Source: Betaproteobacteria bacterium
Lineage (GTDB): Bacteria; Pseudomonadota; Gammaproteobacteria; Burkholderiales; Casimicrobiaceae
Direction: 5' to 3'
Length of the DNA stretch: 38,168 bases
NCBI GenBank assembly: GCA_018971195.1
Contig: JAGXBK010000012.1
Coordinates: 1 to 38,168 of the forward strand
Made by a program: the position numbers and the translations under genes. The stretch's first letter is position 1; each line of letters opens with the position of its first letter. Below, in pieces: positions 29,056 to 38,168 of the stretch. The notes beneath the pieces are model-generated. The model was not told where the DNA came from, did not search any database, and worked only from the letters and a program-made list of their open reading frames with translations.

Positions 29056-30234
29056 ATGAGCCATCGCCCGCACGACCACTCTGCGACCCGCGTCGTCCAC
29101 GCCGGACGCGATCCGCGGCGCTTCCTGGGCGTCGTCAACACACCGGTGTTCCGTGCCTCGACGATCCTGTTCCCGACGCTGGCCGATCTGGAGCGCGCGT
29201 CGCGCGGCGAATACGACGGCCTCACCTACGGCCTGCACGGCCTGCCCACCGTCCGCGACCTGCAGGCCGCACTCGCCGAGATCGAAGGCGGCGACGCAGC
29301 GCTGATGGTGCCTTCCGGCCTCGCCGCGACCACCTTCCCGCTGCTGGCGCTGGCCAATCCCGGCGATCACGTGCTGGTCACCGATTCGGTCTATGGGCCC
29401 ACGCGGCGGTTCTGCGAGAACCATCTGCGCCGCCTCGGGATCGAGGTCGACTACTACGACCCGCTGATCGGCAGCGGCATCGAACGCGTGCTGAAGCCCA
29501 ACACGCGGATCGTCTTCACCGAGTCGCCGGGATCGCTGACTTTCGAAGTGCAGGACCTGCGCGCCATCTCCGATGCGGCGCACGCCCGCGGCGCGGTCGT
29601 CGTCCTCGACAACACGTGGGCGACGCCGCTGGGCTTTCGCTCGTTCGACCATGGCGTCGACGTTTCGGTGCACGCCGCGACCAAGTACATCGGCGGCCAC
29701 TCGGATGTGCTGCTGGGGGCGATTGTCGCCAATGCACGGACGTTCCCCGCGCTGAGCCGCCTGTGGACCGACACGGGAGTGACGCCTTCGCCCGACGACT
29801 GCTTCCTCGCGCTGCGCGGACTGCGGACGCTCGCGGTGAGGCTCGAACGCCACCAGGCGAGCGCGCTGCGCATTGCGCAGTGGCTGAAAGCCCGGCCGGA
29901 GGTCGACGAAGTGCTCTATCCTGCGCTGCCGGGCGCGCGGGGCCACGAGATCTGGAAGCGCGATTTCGCGATGGCGTCCGGGCTGTTCGGGGTGGTGCTG
30001 AAGCCGGTCGCGACGTCGCGACTCGCGGCCATGCTCGATGGCATGCGCCTGTTCGGCATGGGCTGGAGCTGGGGCGGCTTCGAGAGCCTGATGATCCCGA
30101 CCTGGCCCGAGCGCGTGCGCAGCGCCACGCGCTGGCAGAGCGCCGGGCCCTGCGTGCGGCTGCACATCGGCCTCGAGGACGCCGACGACCTGATCGCCGA
30201 TCTCGCCGATGGCTTTGCCCGGATGTCGGCCTGA
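29056..30234 (+). CDS. metC: Cystathionine beta-lyase
   Basis: This PLP-dependent Cys/Met-metabolism enzyme of 392 residues cleaves cystathionine to homocysteine, pyruvate and ammonia in methionine synthesis. The PLP-lysine is Lys210 in VHAATKYIGGHSD. Asp185 in VVLDNTWATP and the Tyr-containing YGLHGLPT (58-65) are the cofactor contacts. The ending GMGWSWGGFESLMIP is typical of the beta-lyase subgroup. GGAG six bases upstream supports ATG 29056. A 97-base gap with a candidate promoter separates it from the transporter gene. Other enzymes of the family (MetB, MetZ) are less likely because of the SWGGFES region. Confidence 0.9.
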   Translation: MSHRPHDHSATRVVHAGRDPRRFLGVVNTPVFRASTILFPTLADLERASRGEYDGLTYGLHGLPTVRDLQAALAEIEGGDAALMVPSGLAATTFPLLALANPGDHVLVTDSVYGPTRRFCENHLRRLGIEVDYYDPLIGSGIERVLKPNTRIVFTESPGSLTFEVQDLRAISDAAHARGAVVVLDNTWATPLGFRSFDHGVDVSVHAATKYIGGHSDVLLGAIVANARTFPALSRLWTDTGVTPSPDDCFLALRGLRTLAVRLERHQASALRIAQWLKARPEVDEVLYPALPGARGHEIWKRDFAMASGLFGVVLKPVATSRLAAMLDGMRLFGMGWSWGGFESLMIPTWPERVRSATRWQSAGPCVRLHIGLEDADDLIADLADGFARMSA

Positions 30235-30289
30235 GGCGCGCGCGGTTCCGATCCGCCGGCCCCGGACCCGCAGGCGCGCGAAGCGGGCG

Positions 30290-31129
30290 CTAACCGGCGC
30301 TCGCGGGCGGCAGCGCCAGCAGTCGGCGGGCCTCGAGCACCGTCGCCGGGCGCCGCCCGTATTCGCCGCAGAGCTCGACGACCTGCTCGACCAGTGCGGC
30401 ATTCGACGGTGCCAGGGTCGCCTTGTCGAGGCGCACATTGTCCTCGAGACCGGTCCTGCAGTGGCCACCGAGCTCCAGCGACCAGCGCGCGAGCGTGACC
30501 TGGTCTTTCCCGATGCCGGCGCCGGTCCAGGTGGCGTCGGGATCGAGGCGCTTCAGCGTCTTGACATAGAACTCCAGCACGTCGCGGTCGACGGGCATCG
30601 CGTTCTTCACGCCCATGACGAACTGCACGTGCAGCGGTCCGGCGATCCGGCCCGCGCGCTGCATCGCGGCAGCCTGGAAGATCATCGACAGGTCGAAGGC
30701 TTCGATCTCGGGCTTGATCCCGAAGCGCTGCATCTCGGAGGCCAGCCAGTCGACCAGGTCGGGGGCGTTGTCGTAGACGCGCGTCGGGAAATTGACCGAG
30801 CCGGTGGCGAGCGACGCCATGTCGGGACGCAGGCCGAGCATCGCTCCGCGCTCGCGCCCCGCGCCCGAGCGGCCGCCGGTGGAGATCTGGGTGATCATGC
30901 CCGGGCAGCGCGCGCGGATGCCTTCGAGCAGCCTGCCGAAGCGCTCGGGATCCGAGGTCGGCGATTCGTCGTCGTTGCGAACGTGAAGGTGCACGAGTGT
31001 CGCGCCGGCCTCGAAAGCCTCCTGCGCAGATTCGATCTGCTCGTCGACCGAAATGGGAACCGCGGGGTTGTCTTTCTTCTTCGGCACCGAGCCGGTGATG
31101 GCGACGGTGATGATGCAGGGCGTGCTCAC
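30290..31129 (-). CDS. Beta-keto acid cleavage enzyme (BKACE, DUF849)
   Basis: This 279-residue zinc TIM-barrel enzyme of the BKACE family condenses a beta-keto acid with acetyl-CoA to give acetoacetate and a new CoA ester. The founding member (Kce) acts on 3-keto-5-aminohexanoate. Zinc ligands are His47 and His49 in LVHLHVR, and the catalytic Arg225, Glu229 and Asp230 lie in ELGGHCRTGLEDN. The N-terminal loop TGSVPKKKDNPAVP lacks the Glu that Kce uses to hold the amino group (as I recall it), so a different keto acid is likely. GTG 31129 follows a strong GGAGGT at 31140-31135 and overlaps the upstream stop (GTGA). It is the last gene of the acyl-CoA operon. Confidence 0.88.
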   Translation of the reverse strand: MSTPCIITVAITGSVPKKKDNPAVPISVDEQIESAQEAFEAGATLVHLHVRNDDESPTSDPERFGRLLEGIRARCPGMITQISTGGRSGAGRERGAMLGLRPDMASLATGSVNFPTRVYDNAPDLVDWLASEMQRFGIKPEIEAFDLSMIFQAAAMQRAGRIAGPLHVQFVMGVKNAMPVDRDVLEFYVKTLKRLDPDATWTGAGIGKDQVTLARWSLELGGHCRTGLEDNVRLDKATLAPSNAALVEQVVELCGEYGRRPATVLEARRLLALPPASAG

Positions 31130-31623
31130 GACTGACCTCCGGAAAAGTTGCGCGAGGCGAATGGCGGGACCGTCCCTTGCGATGACGGCGAACGCCACCT
31201 CTCGTGCAGGGCCTTGGGGTTGGAGATCGCGGTCCAATCGGCGCTGGTCCGCCGCAGGTGGGCGACCAATGCGTCGTGCTGCGGAGGGACGTCGAAGGCT
31301 CCGGCGCGGATCGCTGCGGCGAGCGCCCGGCGCAGTGCCGCAGCGGTTGCGGAAGATCCACTGGATCCAGTCACCAGACTAGCCTGGACTGCGTCTTGCG
31401 GAGCCGCCGACCCCGTGACCGACGCCAGCAGCTCGCGCAGCCGCGAGGTCTCCTCGCGCAAGGCGTCGCCGCCGCTGCGGTGTTCACGATCGGCGATCGC
31501 GATCGCATTGGCGATCATCAATCCCGCATAGCGCCGGTCGCCGGGCAGGGCCGGAAGCAGTTCGCGCAACAGCGCGTCGCGCGCCGCGGCGAGCAGATCC
31601 GACGCGTCGGGAATGTCGCTCAT
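31126..31623 (-). CDS. DUF6285-like small protein, probable kinase partner
   Basis: This 165-residue soluble protein is rich in Ala, Arg and Leu. The helical part LLAAARDALLRELLPALPGD, then YAGLMIANAIAIADREHR, resembles the small DUF6285 proteins encoded next to phosphotransferase-family kinases. Its C-terminal 80 residues are less conserved and include a Ser/Thr-rich linker around 85-92. In the levulinate operon of Pseudomonas putida a small protein (LvaB) is needed by the kinase LvaA; this gene occupies the same position. It overlaps the kinase gene by four bases and the BKACE start by four. Function is inferred from context only. Confidence 0.7.
   Translation of the reverse strand: MSDIPDASDLLAAARDALLRELLPALPGDRRYAGLMIANAIAIADREHRSGGDALREETSRLRELLASVTGSAAPQDAVQASLVTGSSGSSATAAALRRALAAAIRAGAFDVPPQHDALVAHLRRTSADWTAISNPKALHERWRSPSSQGTVPPFASRNFSGGQS
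31135..31140 (-). promoter_or_regulatory. Ribosome binding site deciding the BKACE start
   Basis: GGAGGT on the minus strand lies five bases before GTG 31129. The frame is open further upstream but without family similarity. Confidence 0.7.
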
Positions 31624-32648
31624 CGCGCGGCGCCTTCGCTGAGGTGCAGGATTTCGTACTCGAGGTCGTGGACGATGCGGCCGGTCAACGCGAGCTCGAG
31701 CGAGGTTTCGCCGCCGACGAGATGGCGCCGAGCCTGCTGCAACGCGATCATGGCCCAGCGCAGGTGGGCCATCACCTGCCAGTAATCGAGATCGCCGCGC
31801 GTGATCACGCGCTTCGCGGTCGATTCATAGCCTTGCAGGAAGTCCGCGGCTGACGCGATTCCGCCGGCCTCGCGGTCGTTCGCGCCGAAGCGCCAGCAGC
31901 GCGCGGTGAACCAGCCAAGGTCCTCGCGCGGATCGCCCCAGCCCGCGAACTCCCAGTCGAGCACGCCGCTGAGGTGTCCTGCGTCCACCAGATAGTTTCC
32001 GGTACGGTAGTCGCGGTGGACCAGGGTGACCTCTGCGGATGCGGGGGCATGGAGCTCGCACCAGCGCAACCCCCATTCGAGGCCCGGGTGGGCATCGTCC
32101 ATCGCGTCGAGATACCCGCGGCATTGGGCGATGGTGGCACGCGCCGGATCCGCTGGCGGTGGCGGGAGCGCGTCGAGACCGGGTTGCGGCGGCTTCAGCG
32201 CGTGGATGCGGCCGAGGTTCGCTCCGAGCTCGCGGGCGAGCGCGGGCCCGTCGGGCACCAGCGCAACGTCACGGACCAGCTTGTGGCCAGCCCCCACGCC
32301 GGCGAGGCGGCGCATGACGAAGAACTGGCGGCCGATGATGGCCGGATCGCGACACAGGAACAGCGGTTCCGGCGCCAGCACGCCTGCCCGATGCGCCACG
32401 CGCAGCACGTCGAATTCCTGCGCGCGAGTCAGGCTCGCCGCCACGCCCGAAGGCGCGTCGGTGCGCAGTACCAGCGCCTGAGGGCCGGCGTACGGCCCGC
32501 CGACGACCTCGACGTCGAGCGCGAAGTTTCCCTGGATCGCGCCGCCTGAAAGGCGCTCGTAGCGGCAGATCCGGACCTCGCGGGCCTGCATCTCCCGGAC
32601 GAGCCAGGCGGCGATTCCGCGCGCCTCGGGCGTAGCGGTTCCCGGCAT
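31620..32648 (-). CDS. Aminoglycoside-phosphotransferase-like kinase (ACAD10/11, LvaA type)
   Basis: This 342-residue APH-fold kinase has the nucleotide part with LSGGAIQGNFALDV and the catalytic loop VHRDYRTGN (210-218; His211, Asp213, Asn218), followed by the metal-binding Asp231 in VLDWEFAGWGDP. Such kinases next to acyl-CoA dehydrogenases are not drug-resistance enzymes. In P. putida LvaA and in human ACAD10/11 they phosphorylate the hydroxyl group of 4-hydroxyacyl-CoA. Here the gene starts immediately after the dehydrogenase stop (TAGATG) and overlaps the DUF6285-like gene. 4-Hydroxyacyl-CoA kinase is the best inference; the chain length is unknown. Confidence 0.85.
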   Translation of the reverse strand: MPGTATPEARGIAAWLVREMQAREVRICRYERLSGGAIQGNFALDVEVVGGPYAGPQALVLRTDAPSGVAASLTRAQEFDVLRVAHRAGVLAPEPLFLCRDPAIIGRQFFVMRRLAGVGAGHKLVRDVALVPDGPALARELGANLGRIHALKPPQPGLDALPPPPADPARATIAQCRGYLDAMDDAHPGLEWGLRWCELHAPASAEVTLVHRDYRTGNYLVDAGHLSGVLDWEFAGWGDPREDLGWFTARCWRFGANDREAGGIASAADFLQGYESTAKRVITRGDLDYWQVMAHLRWAMIALQQARRHLVGGETSLELALTGRIVHDLEYEILHLSEGAAR

Positions 32649-33845
<1,197 letters not shown>

Positions 33846-33847
33846 GG

Positions 33848-35401
33848 TCAACGGAGCTGGTCGCGCAGCGCCTTCTTCTGGATCTTGCCGGTCGAGGTCT
33901 TGGGCAGGGGCCCGAAGACCACACGTCGTGGCGCCTTGAAATGCGCGACGCGGCCCCGGACGTGGTCGATCAGCTCGCGCTCCGTCGCGCTGGCACCGGC
34001 CTTGAGGGTCACGAACGCGACGGGCACCTCGCCCCATTTCTTGTCGGGGCCTGCGACCACTGCGACCTCGAGCACGGCCGGATGGCTGTCGATCGCCTGC
34101 TCGACCTCGACCGACGCGATGTTCTCGCCGCCCGAGATGATGATGTCCTTGGCGCGATCGCGCAGCTCGACGTAGCCGTCGGCGTGCATCACGCCGAGAT
34201 CCCCGGTGCGGAACCACCCGTCGGGGCAGGCCCGTTGCGTCGCGGAGTCGTCGCGGTAGTAGCCGAGCATCACGTTGTTGCCGCGGATCGCGATCTCGCC
34301 CATCGTGTTCCCGTCGGCCGGCACGTCGTTGCCCACGGCGTCGACGACGCGCAGCGGGGTCCCGATGACGTTGCATACTCCCTGGCGAGCCTTGAGCCGG
34401 GCCTGTTCGGGCATCGGGAGCGAATCCCATTCCCTGCGCCACTCGCAGATCGCCGACGGTCCGTAAGTCTCGGTCAGGCCGTACAGGTGCGTGATATCCA
34501 TGCCGAGCGCGGACAGACGCTGCAGCAGCGCCGGCGTCGGGGGCGCCCCGCCGGTCGCCACGCGCACGCTGGGTTCGAGCCGGCCCGCGTCGGGATCCCA
34601 GACCGTCATCGTCAGCAGCGTCGGCGCAGCGCAGAAATGGGTGACGCCGGAATGACGCATATGGCGCCAGATCGCCGCGGCGTCGATCCGGGGCAGGCAC
34701 AGGTGGCAGCCCCCCATCGCCGTCACCGCCCAGGGAAAGCACCAGCCGTTGCAGTGGAACATCGGCAGCGTCCACAGGTAGACCGAGTCGCTGTCGAGGC
34801 GCATGTGCATCGCCATCGCCAGCGCCTGCAGATAGGCCCCGCGATGGTGGTACATGACGCCTTTCGGCGCGCCGGTGGTGCCGCTGGTGTAGTCGATGGC
34901 GAGCAGCCCTCGCTCGTCCTCCACCGGGTGCACCAGGGGTGCCGATCGGGCGATCCGTGCCTCGATCTCGTCGCGGGCGCCGCCTGCCCGCCACAGGCGT
35001 GGGTGTGATGCCGCCCGCGCGGCAGCCTGCTCGCCCGCAGCCGCGAGGGCGTCGTCGCAGATCAGCACTGTCGCTCCGGCGTGATCGAGGATCCAGGCGA
35101 TATCGGCCGGCGTCAGTCGCGTGTTCAGCGCAACCAGCACCGCGCCCGCGAACGGGACCGCGTAGTGCGCGGCGAGCAGGACGTGGGAGTTCGGTGCCAG
35201 GACTGCGACGCGATCGCCGGGCGCGACGCCGGCAGCCCGGAGCGCGCCTGCGAGCCGCGCGCATCGATCCAGAAACCCGCTCCACGTGTAGCGCAGCTCG
35301 CCGTCGACGACACCGATGCGATCGGGAAACACCCGGGCCGCGCGCTGGAGGAACGCGGTCGGGGTCAGCGGCTCGTGATCGAAGCGGGGGGGCGTCGGCA
35401 T
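33848..35401 (-). CDS. Acyl-CoA synthetase (AMP-forming)
   Basis: This 517-residue adenylate-forming ligase activates a carboxylic acid to its CoA ester. Motifs are YTSGTTGAPKGVMYHHRG, the core HLYGLTETYGPSAICEW, WFRTGDLGVMHADGYVELRD, the hinge RAKDIIISGGENIAS and the catalytic Lys in LPKTSTGKIQK. It resembles the medium-chain/AlkK-like group; the exact substrate is unknown. It is the first gene of the leftward operon with the dehydrogenase, kinase, DUF6285-like protein and BKACE, and would load the acid that the others process, like LvaE. No ribosome site precedes ATG 35401. The 112-base divergent gap holds a GTATAC palindrome (35481-35486). Confidence 0.9.
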   Translation of the reverse strand: MPTPPRFDHEPLTPTAFLQRAARVFPDRIGVVDGELRYTWSGFLDRCARLAGALRAAGVAPGDRVAVLAPNSHVLLAAHYAVPFAGAVLVALNTRLTPADIAWILDHAGATVLICDDALAAAGEQAAARAASHPRLWRAGGARDEIEARIARSAPLVHPVEDERGLLAIDYTSGTTGAPKGVMYHHRGAYLQALAMAMHMRLDSDSVYLWTLPMFHCNGWCFPWAVTAMGGCHLCLPRIDAAAIWRHMRHSGVTHFCAAPTLLTMTVWDPDAGRLEPSVRVATGGAPPTPALLQRLSALGMDITHLYGLTETYGPSAICEWRREWDSLPMPEQARLKARQGVCNVIGTPLRVVDAVGNDVPADGNTMGEIAIRGNNVMLGYYRDDSATQRACPDGWFRTGDLGVMHADGYVELRDRAKDIIISGGENIASVEVEQAIDSHPAVLEVAVVAGPDKKWGEVPVAFVTLKAGASATERELIDHVRGRVAHFKAPRRVVFGPLPKTSTGKIQKKALRDQLR

Positions 35402-35481
35402 GGTTCGCGAGACGGGGTCGTCGGCCCCACGGCGCCCGGGTGCCGGGATGGGCGCGGGCAGGGGAGGGTCGGCCTGTTGCG

Positions 35482-35487
35482 TATACT
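35482..35487 (+). promoter_or_regulatory. Possible -10 box for the shikimate-dehydrogenase-like gene
   Basis: TATACT (5 of 6) lies 26 bases before ATG 35514 in the divergent gap. No -35 match is seen at the right distance. The overlapping palindrome GTATAC could serve both strands. Confidence 0.4.
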
Positions 35488-35513
35488 CGGCCCATCAGGT
35501 TCGGAGCGTCAAG

Positions 35514-36350
35514 ATGGTGACCGGAACGACGACGCTGATCGCGCACATCGGGTATCCGACCGAGGCGTTCAAGGCGCCGATGATCTACAACCCGTATTTC
35601 GAGCAGGCGGGCATCGACGCCGTCGTCGTGCCGATGGGGGTGAGGGCCGACGACTACGCCGAGTTCCTGCGCGGCCTGTTCAGGATGACCAACATCCGCG
35701 GCGCGCTGGTCACCATGCCGCACAAGGTGACGACTGTCGCGCTGCTCGACGAGGTGACGCCGACGGTGAAGGTTGCGGGATCCTGCAACGCGATCCTCAA
35801 GCGTCCCGACGGCACCCTGCTGGGTGACATGTTCGACGGCGCGGGCTTCGTGCGCGGCGCGCAGCGCAAGGGTTGCAGGCTCGAGGGCGCGAAGGCGCTG
35901 GTGGTCGGCGCCGGCGGCGTCGGGTCCGCGATCGCGGCGTCGCTGGCGGCGGCGGGGGTCGCTTCGATCGGGCTGTTCGATTCGGATCGGGCGGCTGCCG
36001 AGTCACTGGGCAGGCGCCTGCGTGAACACTATCCGGCGCTCGTCGTCGACACGGGATCGAACGACCCGGCCGGCCATGACGTCGTCGTCAACGCGACGCC
36101 GCTGGGGATGAAGGACGGCGATCCGCTGCCGATGGATGTCGGGCGGATCGCGGCCGGAACCTTCGTCGGCGAGGTGGTGATGAAGGAGGAATACACGCCG
36201 CTGCTGCGCGCGGCGATGGACAAGGGTTGCCCGGTGCAGGTCGGCACCGACATGCTGTTCGAGATGATTCCAGCCTACCTCGAGTTCTTCGGCTTTCCGA
36301 CCACGTCGGCCGAGAACCTGCGCGCCGTGTCGCGGATTCGCTACCGGTAG
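35514..36350 (+). CDS. Shikimate dehydrogenase-like oxidoreductase (divergent)
   Basis: This 278-residue protein has the two-domain shikimate/quinate dehydrogenase fold: N-terminal substrate domain (1-115) and NAD(P) domain with GAGGVGSA (132-139). Catalytic Lys71 in VTMPHK and Asp108 in MFDGAG are present. The substrate motif SKSPxxHN of true AroE is replaced by AFKAPMIYN (18-26), so both shikimate-binding serines are missing. AVN and NTDG become SCNA and MFDG. It is therefore probably not the AroE of aromatic synthesis but acts on another hydroxy acid. GGAG seven bases upstream supports ATG 35514. It lies divergent from the acyl-CoA operon and convergent with the ABC genes. Confidence 0.8.
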   Translation: MVTGTTTLIAHIGYPTEAFKAPMIYNPYFEQAGIDAVVVPMGVRADDYAEFLRGLFRMTNIRGALVTMPHKVTTVALLDEVTPTVKVAGSCNAILKRPDGTLLGDMFDGAGFVRGAQRKGCRLEGAKALVVGAGGVGSAIAASLAAAGVASIGLFDSDRAAAESLGRRLREHYPALVVDTGSNDPAGHDVVVNATPLGMKDGDPLPMDVGRIAAGTFVGEVVMKEEYTPLLRAAMDKGCPVQVGTDMLFEMIPAYLEFFGFPTTSAENLRAVSRIRYR

Positions 36351-36372
36351 GTGCCGGAGTGACCGTTGCGGC

Positions 36373-36387
36373 CGGTCGCAGCGACCG
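36373..36387. repeat. Inverted repeat in the convergent gap
   Basis: CGGTCGC and GCGACCG around a single A form a perfect 7-bp dyad in the 39-base gap between two converging genes. With no T-run on either side it is a weak candidate for a bidirectional terminator. Confidence 0.3.
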
Positions 36388-36389
36388 CG

Positions 36390-37145
36390 TCAGGCGGAAG
36401 GGTCCTCGCCCAGGTAGACGGCCCGCACCCGCGGATCGGCGCGGATGGCGGCGGGCGGGCCCTCGGCGATCACGGTTCCGCGGTCCAGCACGATGATGCG
36501 GTCGGCGAACTCGAACACGATGTCCATGTCGTGCTCGGTGAACAGCATGGCCGCCTCGCCCCGGCGAACCAGACCGGTCGCAAGCTGCATCAGCTCGCGG
36601 CGGGATTGCGGCGCCATCCCGGCGGTGGGCTCGTCCATCAGCAGCAGACGTGGATTGCCGGCCAGCGCCAGCGCGAGCTCGACCCGCTTGGCATCGCCGT
36701 ACGCGAGCGCCGCGCAATGCCGCTCCGCGAGCGCCGCGATCCCGACGGTTGCCAGGAGCGCATCGGCTTCGGGCGTGGCGGCCGGGAGCAGACCGGGGCC
36801 GATTCGCGCGTCGTGCCGATCGCGCGCGGCGAGGGCGAGGACCACGCTCTCGCGCACCGTCATCGACGCGAATGTCGCCGCGACCTGGAACGTCCGGCCG
36901 ATGCCGCGGTGCGCGATCGCCTGCGCCGCCAGCCCGGTGATCGAACGGGACTCGAACTGCACGTCGCCCGCGTCGGGGGCGAGCTGGCCGTCGATCAGGT
37001 TGAAGCAGGTGGTCTTGCCGGCGCCGTTGGGACCGATCAGCGCCACCACTTCGCCGCGATCGACGCCGAAGCTCAGGTCGCGCAGCGCGGCGACGCCTCC
37101 GAAGGCCTTGCGCAGCCCCCTGACGCGCAGCACAGGTGCGCTCAC
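36390..37145 (-). CDS. LIV-type ABC transporter ATP-binding protein (LivG-like)
   Basis: This 251-residue ABC ATPase of the branched-chain amino acid/organic acid uptake family has Walker A GPNGAGKTT (38-46), signature LAYGDAKRVELA, Walker B LLLMDEPTAG, and the switch His in TEHDMD. The LivG group is shown by IGRTFQVAATFASMTVRESV. GTG 37145 overlaps the permease stop by four bases (GTGA), so the two are translationally coupled. The longer open frame upstream is shadow. A LivF partner and a binding protein are not in the window. LIV-type systems often import aromatic or aliphatic acids, so a substrate for the neighbouring catabolic genes is possible but unproven. Confidence 0.93.
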   Translation of the reverse strand: MSAPVLRVRGLRKAFGGVAALRDLSFGVDRGEVVALIGPNGAGKTTCFNLIDGQLAPDAGDVQFESRSITGLAAQAIAHRGIGRTFQVAATFASMTVRESVVLALAARDRHDARIGPGLLPAATPEADALLATVGIAALAERHCAALAYGDAKRVELALALAGNPRLLLMDEPTAGMAPQSRRELMQLATGLVRRGEAAMLFTEHDMDIVFEFADRIIVLDRGTVIAEGPPAAIRADPRVRAVYLGEDPSA

Positions 37146-38168
37146 GGCGACCTTCGCAGTCGGCGCGACCAGGCACCGAGCGCGCCGCCGAGGCCGCCGG
37201 GGAAGGCCAGCACCAGCGCCAGGATGGCAACGCCGACCCACGCCCGCCAGTACTCGGTCGTGCGGGACAGCGTGTCCTGGAGCAGGGTCAGCGCGGCCGA
37301 GCCTGCGAGCGGGCCGAACCAGGCGGTCTGGCCGCCGATCAGCATCATCACCAGCGCGTCGACGGAGCGCGGGATGGCGAGGGCATCGGGGCCGATTCCG
37401 CCCTTCGAATACGCATAGAGGCCCCCCGCGAGACCGGCGAACGCGCCCGAAAGCCACAGTCCCTTGATGCGTCGGCGACCGACGTCGATGCCGATCGCAG
37501 CGGCACGCAGCGGTGAATCGCGGCCGGCGCGCAGGGCATACCCGAATGGCGTGAACGCGATGACGACCAGCGCGACCAGCGCCGGTGCGACGATCGCGAG
37601 GACCAGCAGGTAATAGCGCGAAGGATCGGCGAGGGCTGCAGGCGGCCAGACGCCGGTGATGCCGTTGGAGCCGCCGGTGACGCTGTCCCAGTCCAGCGCG
37701 ATCGACCAGGCGATCTGTGCGAAGGCGAGGGTCAGCATCGCGAAATAGATGCCCGACAGGCGCCTGCAGATCGCGCCGAAGGCCAGCGCGGCGAGCGCCG
37801 CCGCGAGAGGCGCCGCGACGAGATCCGCGACGAAAGGATAGCCGTGGGTCGCCGCGATCGCGGCGGCATAGCCACCGATGCCGAAGTACGCCGCATGGCC
37901 GAACGACGTCATCCCGCCGCGACCGGTCAGCAACTGAAGGCTGCCCGCAAACAATGCGGCGACGAGGATGTCGGTCGCGAGCACCCGTGTGTAGGTGTCG
38001 CCGGTGAGCGGCAGCAACAATCCGGCGGCGACCAACGCGATCGCGACGAACGCCTGTGGCCTTGCGGGACGCGCGACCCGGGCGCGCTCGACCGCGGTGA
38101 GCGGCGGCGCGTGGAACGCGGGCGCGGCGCCGAAGAGGCCCGTCGGGCGGACCAGCAGCACCAGCGCC
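37142..38168 (-). CDS. LIV-type ABC transporter permease, apparently fused LivH-LivM (partial)
   Basis: The frame is open at the right edge; 342 residues are visible. From about the 40th visible residue it is a LivM permease, with the typical GRGGMTSFGHAAYFGIGGYAAA and DSPLRAAAIGIDVGRRRIKGLWLSGAFAGLAGGLYA and multiple transmembrane segments. Before this, at the edge, the same frame reads ALVLLVRPTGLFG, the usual C-terminal end of LivH, joined through a short hydrophilic linker without a stop. The gene is therefore probably a LivH-LivM fusion cut by the window edge. A separate LivM starting at GTG 38161 would have an unusual N-terminus. Confidence 0.82.
   Translation of the reverse strand, partial: ALVLLVRPTGLFGAAPAFHAPPLTAVERARVARPARPQAFVAIALVAAGLLLPLTGDTYTRVLATDILVAALFAGSLQLLTGRGGMTSFGHAAYFGIGGYAAAIAATHGYPFVADLVAAPLAAALAALAFGAICRRLSGIYFAMLTLAFAQIAWSIALDWDSVTGGSNGITGVWPPAALADPSRYYLLVLAIVAPALVALVVIAFTPFGYALRAGRDSPLRAAAIGIDVGRRRIKGLWLSGAFAGLAGGLYAYSKGGIGPDALAIPRSVDALVMMLIGGQTAWFGPLAGSAALTLLQDTLSRTTEYWRAWVGVAILALVLAFPGGLGGALGAWSRRLRRSP

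Follow-up and report, generated by a model that had tools for sequence, protein, structure and literature searches.

Levulinate catabolism in Pseudomonas putida KT2440 is encoded by an operon laid out as lvaRABCDEFG (PMC6692424, PMC10164729), and the published lva pathway converts levulinate to a beta-oxidation intermediate (PMC11342911). Mammalian ACAD10 and ACAD11 also combine a kinase with an atypical acyl-CoA dehydrogenase, and for ACAD11 the signature residues have been named (PMC12440821). As for the beta-keto acid cleavage enzymes (BKACE), family members are reported to accept many beta-keto acids (PMC4922564), and a BKACE has been proposed to do the work of PcaIJ and PcaF in a single step (PMC8963497, PMC12379598). 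Here, we analyse a run of five minus-strand genes of these types (30290-35401) in a stretch of 38,168 nucleotides, hereafter the window, which is contig JAGXBK010000012.1 of the Casimicrobiaceae assembly GCA_018971195.1. We propose, with the chances about even, that the run is an lva-type operon for levulinate or other 4-oxo/4-hydroxy acids to which a 3-oxoadipate BKACE has been added on the 3' side and an AroE-like gene on the 5' side, and that these parts are functionally linked.

Four genes related to the lva operon

The run starts with an AMP-binding acyl-CoA synthetase gene (LvaE-like, 33848-35401; PF00501 and PF13193), followed by genes for an atypical acyl-CoA dehydrogenase (LvaC-like, 32649-33845), an APH-fold kinase (LvaA-like, 31620-32648; PF01636, with VHRD and DWE motifs), a DUF6285 protein of 165 aa (LvaB-like, 31126-31623; PF19802, placed in a 7-sequence alignment) and a BKACE (30290-31129; PF05853), all on the minus strand. 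A preliminary description of this DNA had reported five packed genes, and our recomputed intergenic gaps from the synthetase to the BKACE (2, 0, -4 and -4 bases) agreed with it, as did the coordinates and the Pfam families. Each of the five proteins scored above its Pfam cut-off (270.7 bits for AMP-binding; ACAD domains 146, 66 and 54; APH 136; DUF6285 65.7 with a cut-off of 28.1; BKACE 314.6 with a cut-off of 24.8). All frames are open and coding-like, the GC content at third codon positions (GC3) ranging from 0.78 in the DUF6285 gene up to 0.89, and the five-gene arrangement is beyond chance. No sigma-70-like promoter and no terminator-like site was found within 29900-36500.

The window was compared with the sequence of a reference lva operon on the Pseudomonas aeruginosa plasmid p12939-PER, where prpR is followed by the kinase, lvaB, the acyl-CoA dehydrogenase, a short-chain dehydrogenase/reductase (SDR)-type gene, the acyl-CoA synthetase, a DUF485 protein and an acetate symporter, an order that matches the P. 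putida layout. The second gene of this plasmid operon is annotated as the 4-hydroxypentanoyl-CoA kinase subunit LvaB and is a DUF6285 protein by Pfam (85.3 bits). The window proteins are 50% (LvaE), 70% (LvaC), 55% (LvaA) and 44% (LvaB) identical to their plasmid counterparts, and the kinase adjoins its DUF6285 partner as LvaA does LvaB. By sequence, no solved relative of DUF6285 was found, and our literature search gave no paper that names it.

When aligned to mouse ACAD11, to which it is 38% identical, the window dehydrogenase shows the conserved arginine (R-x7-HCMR), the HCMR motif and the catalytic aspartate. Its placement, which the preliminary description had put forward as a test, was addressed in a tree of 28 rows (the window protein, two PDB fragments and 25 sequences called at 20 selected loci), in which five outgroup rows sat on long branches and were flagged by the tree tool. 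The window protein fell in a 10-row clade (support 99/99) together with dehydrogenases from lva-type operons on Stutzerimonas, Azotobacter and Massilia plasmids. Apart from it stood the pair of ACAD11 and 4hr3 and a second clade, of 11 rows, which shares the signature at about 40% identity; the catalytic aspartate is present in every one of the 21 rows that make up the two clades. The second-clade dehydrogenases (loci L023, L024, L025, L040, L162, L163, L165, L169, L171, L172 and L174, where Lxxx denotes an individual locus compared) are encoded with a kinase, mostly with DUF6285 and often with an SDR.

Altogether, these identities, residues and clades, together with the DUF6285 family of LvaB, bear out the roles that had been assigned to the four genes, which are very probably lvaE, lvaC, lvaA and lvaB; on the strength of homology, their products would be expected to have the corresponding activities, that of the kinase being on 4-hydroxyacyl-CoA. 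The locus resembles the mammalian enzymes in its kinase and in its atypical dehydrogenase with R-x7-HCMR and catalytic aspartate, and differs from them in that kinase and dehydrogenase are two genes (gap 0) instead of a single chain, the mouse ACAD11 dehydrogenase lying in a separate clade. It differs from the lvaRABCDEFG operon in its gene order, which in the genus is E-C-A-B-(D), in the added BKACE and in the deletion of LvaD in the window. Moreover, neither an LvaR-type regulator nor a DUF485/ActP transporter was found among the neighbours tested in the window (AroE-like, LivG, LivM and MetC; the contig ends at 38168).

Deletion of the reductase gene and an altered LvaB

An LvaD reductase is not part of the window operon, from which the preliminary description had concluded that the substrate is probably not levulinate. 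This conclusion does not hold up against the related genomes. Among 22 genomes of the genus (G000 being the window's own and the other G0xx numbers its relatives), a kinase with at least 65% identity was found in seven, namely G000, G032, G039, G048, G050, G042 and G062. In five of the six sisters (G039, G048, G050, G042 and G062), an SDR gene directly follows the DUF6285 gene, the G039 SDR being 59% identical to LvaD, and in the sixth (G032), whose operon falls on two contigs, the BKACE is preceded by a partial SDR. The contig of G062 ends inside the dehydrogenase gene, which leaves LvaE beyond view.

The window DUF6285 gene carries the mark of this loss. Its frame runs on for a tail of about 24 residues beyond the AxSNPxAL motif (six homologues end 0-4 residues after it), and the DNA of this tail (31132-31199, minus strand) aligned locally to the spacer between SDR and BKACE in G032, the nearest sister, with a score of 91, the best of 1000 shuffles reaching 34; by tblastn, the tail matched the same spacer at 78% over 23 aa. 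Inside the window LvaB there is also an insertion of roughly 14-21 residues, which none of the six homologues has. Because the tail matches what lies between SDR and BKACE in a sister, we read it as a deletion scar, left when the SDR gene was removed in what is apparently a recent loss; sister genomes and scar together rule out that the SDR was never present. The SDR-to-BKACE gap is 40 bases in G039 and about 100 in G032, and the -4 overlap of the DUF6285 and BKACE genes in the window would thus be a by-product of the deletion and not an ancestral trait. An assembly error might produce the same pattern, although the junction is internal to a single contig, with conserved sequence on both sides of it.

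One LvaD-like SDR is encoded elsewhere in G000, on contig C243 (75% identical to the G039 SDR; the next two matches have 38 and 41%). In five sisters (G062 not among them), the single SDR match at E<=1e-60 is the operon copy. We doubt that the operon SDR was simply relocated to C243: the C243 protein is 79% identical to the partial operon SDR of G032 (169 aa), versus 96% for the dehydrogenase and 90% for the kinase, which better fits a diverged replacement; an SDR tree does not settle the matter. Since the SDR was lost from the window operon only and a copy is present on C243, the absence of LvaD is no argument against levulinate. On C243 (locus L057, 473-9472), the SDR gene lies near genes for two AMP-binding ligases, for a B12 mutase (a large subunit of the methylmalonyl-CoA-mutase type and a B12-binding subunit), for MeaB and for a thiamine pyrophosphate enzyme, possibly a cluster for branched-acid degradation.

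The BKACE, its relatives and its neighbours

The BKACE gene has a GTG start with GGAGG upstream, and its product scored 487.9 bits (cut-off 350) with the NCBI 3-oxoadipate:acetyl-CoA model NF053568. Alignment to 2y7d showed HxH and GGHxRxGxEDN, the active-site motifs of Kce. Two Cupriavidus plasmid enzymes are 79-80% identical to it and lie near genes that we named by eye, from the starts of their proteins, as catA/catechol dioxygenase and ben/benzoate dioxygenase, a setting that agrees with the one given in PMC6449761. In named genomes, we considered the best 80 of at least 563 relatives (44 of the 80 stretches being 20 kb or longer): among these 80, an intradiol dioxygenase match was nearby in 41 and ACAD matches of about 30% in two. 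The substrate of the window enzyme is therefore predicted from its subfamily, and likely, to be 3-oxoadipate. The BKACE of pca/cat clusters in Methylobacterium, Rhodobacterales and Cupriavidus, for which the reaction 3-oxoadipate + acetyl-CoA -> succinyl-CoA + acetoacetate is proposed (PMC8963497, PMC12379598, PMC6449761), belong to this subfamily too, with identities of 65-80% at the loci compared. The difference lies in the setting: those enzymes adjoin ring-cleavage genes, whereas the window BKACE stands behind an lva operon, with pcaIJ elsewhere in the genome.

In the genus (search at E<=1e-60), a BKACE with more than 90% identity was found in G000, G032 and G039 only, copies with 57-59% identity lying on other contigs in G042 (two) and G062 (one). 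The BKACE thus follows the operon in 3/7 kinase-bearing genomes. A lack of co-conservation of the five genes, which the preliminary description had named as a refutation, was borne out in part: the lva genes are conserved together, and the BKACE accompanies them in these three. In each of the same three genomes, two PF00775 genes (pcaHG) and a pcaI-family gene are neighbours on a single contig; in G000 this pca cluster, on contig C12, comprises pcaI, J, F, H and G, with B and D assigned by position and resemblance. PF00775 gave no match in G048, G050 and G042, and five matches in G062. Ring-cleavage dioxygenase genes are thus present in 3/3 genomes with a BKACE behind the operon versus 1/4 without, a suggestive association in a sample that is small and not independent.

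Beyond the genus, neighbourhood counts were made on called genes (the caller was crude and missed some open reading frames) and rechecked by tblastn, which gave the same counts. In the order, the kinase was found at E<=1e-70 in 13/399 genomes, the window's included, and a dehydrogenase was seen in nine of the 13 kinase loci that the other 12 genomes hold; that of L168 belongs to the window's clade by tree, and that of L173, outside the tree sample, is 51% identical to the window's. At the level of the class, the Stutzerimonas kinase as query yielded 3/379 genomes, again with the window's included. On plasmids, we compared 13 lva- or kinase-type stretches, out of 42 kinase and 96 BKACE records, and found a BKACE in two, from Paracoccus aestuarii and Azospirillum ramasamyi. 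The Paracoccus stretch (L040, 6093-20919) holds, within 15 kb, genes for a dehydrogenase, a kinase, a small open reading frame, a tripartite tricarboxylate transporter, AroE-like (34%) and QuiC-like proteins and pcaDCHG, with the BKACE between pcaG and a lyase gene.

Three other plasmid loci are noted in their own right. In Azospirillum ramasamyi (L184, 6849-14122), a BKACE from a different group (60% identical to a copy on contig C82 of G000) lies 2 kb before an SDR-ACAD-kinase-DUF6285-histidine phosphatase series, with a TetR gene between. The Azotobacter salinestris plasmid (L045, 1-11650) carries an lva-type operon, followed by a second copy of its kinase and a gene annotated as the 3-oxoadipyl-CoA thiolase pcaF. 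On the megaplasmid of Cupriavidus sp. P-10 (L187 and L041), an LvaC-like dehydrogenase gene (68% identical to the window's), with no window-type kinase beside it, lies about 30 kb from a 3-oxoadipate-type BKACE.

Upstream of the run, an AroE-like gene of the shikimate/quinate dehydrogenase family (35514-36350, plus strand; PF08501) runs divergently and is an accessory copy, two further AroE-like genes in G000 having 41 and 32% identity to it. A homologue with 65% identity directly precedes a BKACE in L076, where the BKACE comes after AroQ-like (named by eye) and AroE-like genes; in L075, a BKACE precedes AroE-like (26%) and QuiC-like genes. The AroE-like gene adjoins the operon in G000 and G039 and was not found in the operon stretches of G048, G050 and G042 (in G032 and G062, the contig ends). 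In the spacer between the divergent LvaE and AroE-like genes (35395-35513), about 40 bases beside the AroE start are near-identical in G039 and the remainder has diverged, which makes these 40 bases a possible candidate for a control region. Further upstream lie genes for a LivG-type ATP-binding cassette (ABC) transporter ATPase (36390-37160, minus strand; PF00005 and PF12399) and, at the contig end, a LivM-type ABC transporter permease (37142-38161, minus strand; PF02653).

A possible link between 3-oxoadipate and levulinate

In the mechanism that we propose, LvaE would convert the acid to its CoA ester, an LvaD-type SDR, supplied in the window's genome in trans from C243, would reduce the 4-oxoacyl-CoA, LvaA with LvaB would phosphorylate the 4-hydroxyl and LvaC would take off the phosphate to give an enoyl- or 3-hydroxyacyl-CoA for beta-oxidation. 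The BKACE would form an independent branch, in which 3-oxoadipate and acetyl-CoA would yield succinyl-CoA and acetoacetate. What would connect the two branches is the decarboxylation of 3-oxoadipate: this compound is 4-oxoadipate when numbered from the opposite end, so that loss of CO2 would give levulinate, and beta-ketoadipate is described as decarboxylating to levulinate, which can then be catabolised (PMC9460563). A single operon, induced by such acids, could then deal with both ketoadipate and its decay product. We hold the functional link between ketoadipate and levulinate somewhere between tentative and evenly balanced. That the operon is a dedicated bridge from the beta-ketoadipate pathway to levulinate catabolism, capturing 3-oxoadipate through the BKACE and its decay product through LvaE-C-A-B with an LvaD, we put forward tentatively, with the odds somewhat against it.

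Several observations weigh against such a link. We found lva genes united with the BKACE in no more than three genomes, which are related; the Paracoccus plasmid, whose dehydrogenase belongs to the second clade, is a looser case, and in G032 the continuity of operon and BKACE rests on two contigs. By tblastn, none of the 13 kinase loci that the order has outside the window's genome (in 12 genomes; stretches of 8.7-19 kb, in part truncated where a contig stops) gave a BKACE match, and among the best 80 BKACE loci none had a kinase or DUF6285 match. G062 has lva genes and PF00775 genes and no BKACE within its 11-kb stretch, and pcaI-family matches do not discriminate, as they occur in 20/22 genus genomes, including the four kinase-bearing genomes without the BKACE. 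G000 itself encodes PcaIJ and PcaF, so the BKACE is not needed for 3-oxoadipate. Finally, the decarboxylation described in PMC9460563 is acid-catalysed, and its bearing on flux at neutral or cell pH is presumed.

The main rival is a chance neighbourhood, in which a BKACE and an AroE-like gene from quinate/shikimate-to-ketoadipate catabolism became inserted at the two flanks of an lva operon unrelated to them and share its transcription without metabolic meaning. Such an origin would suit a BKACE whose relatives have pca/cat/aro genes for neighbours, and in none of the best 80 loci the lva kinase, and which joins the operon in only 3/7 genomes. We nevertheless consider it unlikely, given that the BKACE gene is on the same strand, that only 40 (G039) or about 100 bases (G032) separate it from the SDR and -4 from DUF6285 in the window, that the window has no terminator-like site and that the two substrates are chemically adjacent.

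Much less probable still is the single chain that the preliminary description had envisaged, in which kinase and dehydrogenase yield a 3-hydroxy/3-keto acid, not from levulinate, that is then cleaved not by thiolysis but by the BKACE, with acetyl-CoA. A single run of five genes and a family that accepts many beta-keto acids (PMC4922564) would be in keeping with it, but the substrates of kinase and dehydrogenase are CoA esters and that of the BKACE is a free beta-keto acid, so that the ester would first have to be hydrolysed. The BKACE moreover belongs to the 3-oxoadipate group, and 4/7 genomes have the lva genes without it. With the wrong chemical state of the substrate and the wrong BKACE group, we rejected action on the LvaC product; a place for the BKACE downstream of the dehydrogenase is improbable. 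It is also rather improbable, though less so than the single chain, that the levulinate branch has decayed and only the BKACE matters. The deleted SDR, the scar and an LvaB with an internal insertion and about 24 foreign residues at its end would all be expected of decay; five open frames with coding-like GC3 would not, and the LvaD-like SDR kept on C243, when the sole match in five sisters is the operon copy, suggests replacement.

Levulinate has mostly been treated as an industrial chemical. According to PMC10164729, no route by which microbes make it is yet known. Our literature search gave no paper joining levulinate with BKACE, 'levulin' occurring only within a reference title of PMC6365646. 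Where DUF6285 proteins adjoin kinases and dehydrogenases, we suggest that they are relatives of LvaB, LvaA and LvaC, and not drug-phosphorylating enzymes or plain dehydrogenases. An lva operon that stands together with an enzyme for 3-oxoadipate, a breakdown product of plant aromatics, and with a shikimate-type gene points to a natural source of levulinate. If this is true, natural levulinate would arise in aromatic-degrading bacteria through decarboxylation of 3-oxoadipate, and the lva pathway would gain a natural source of its substrate.

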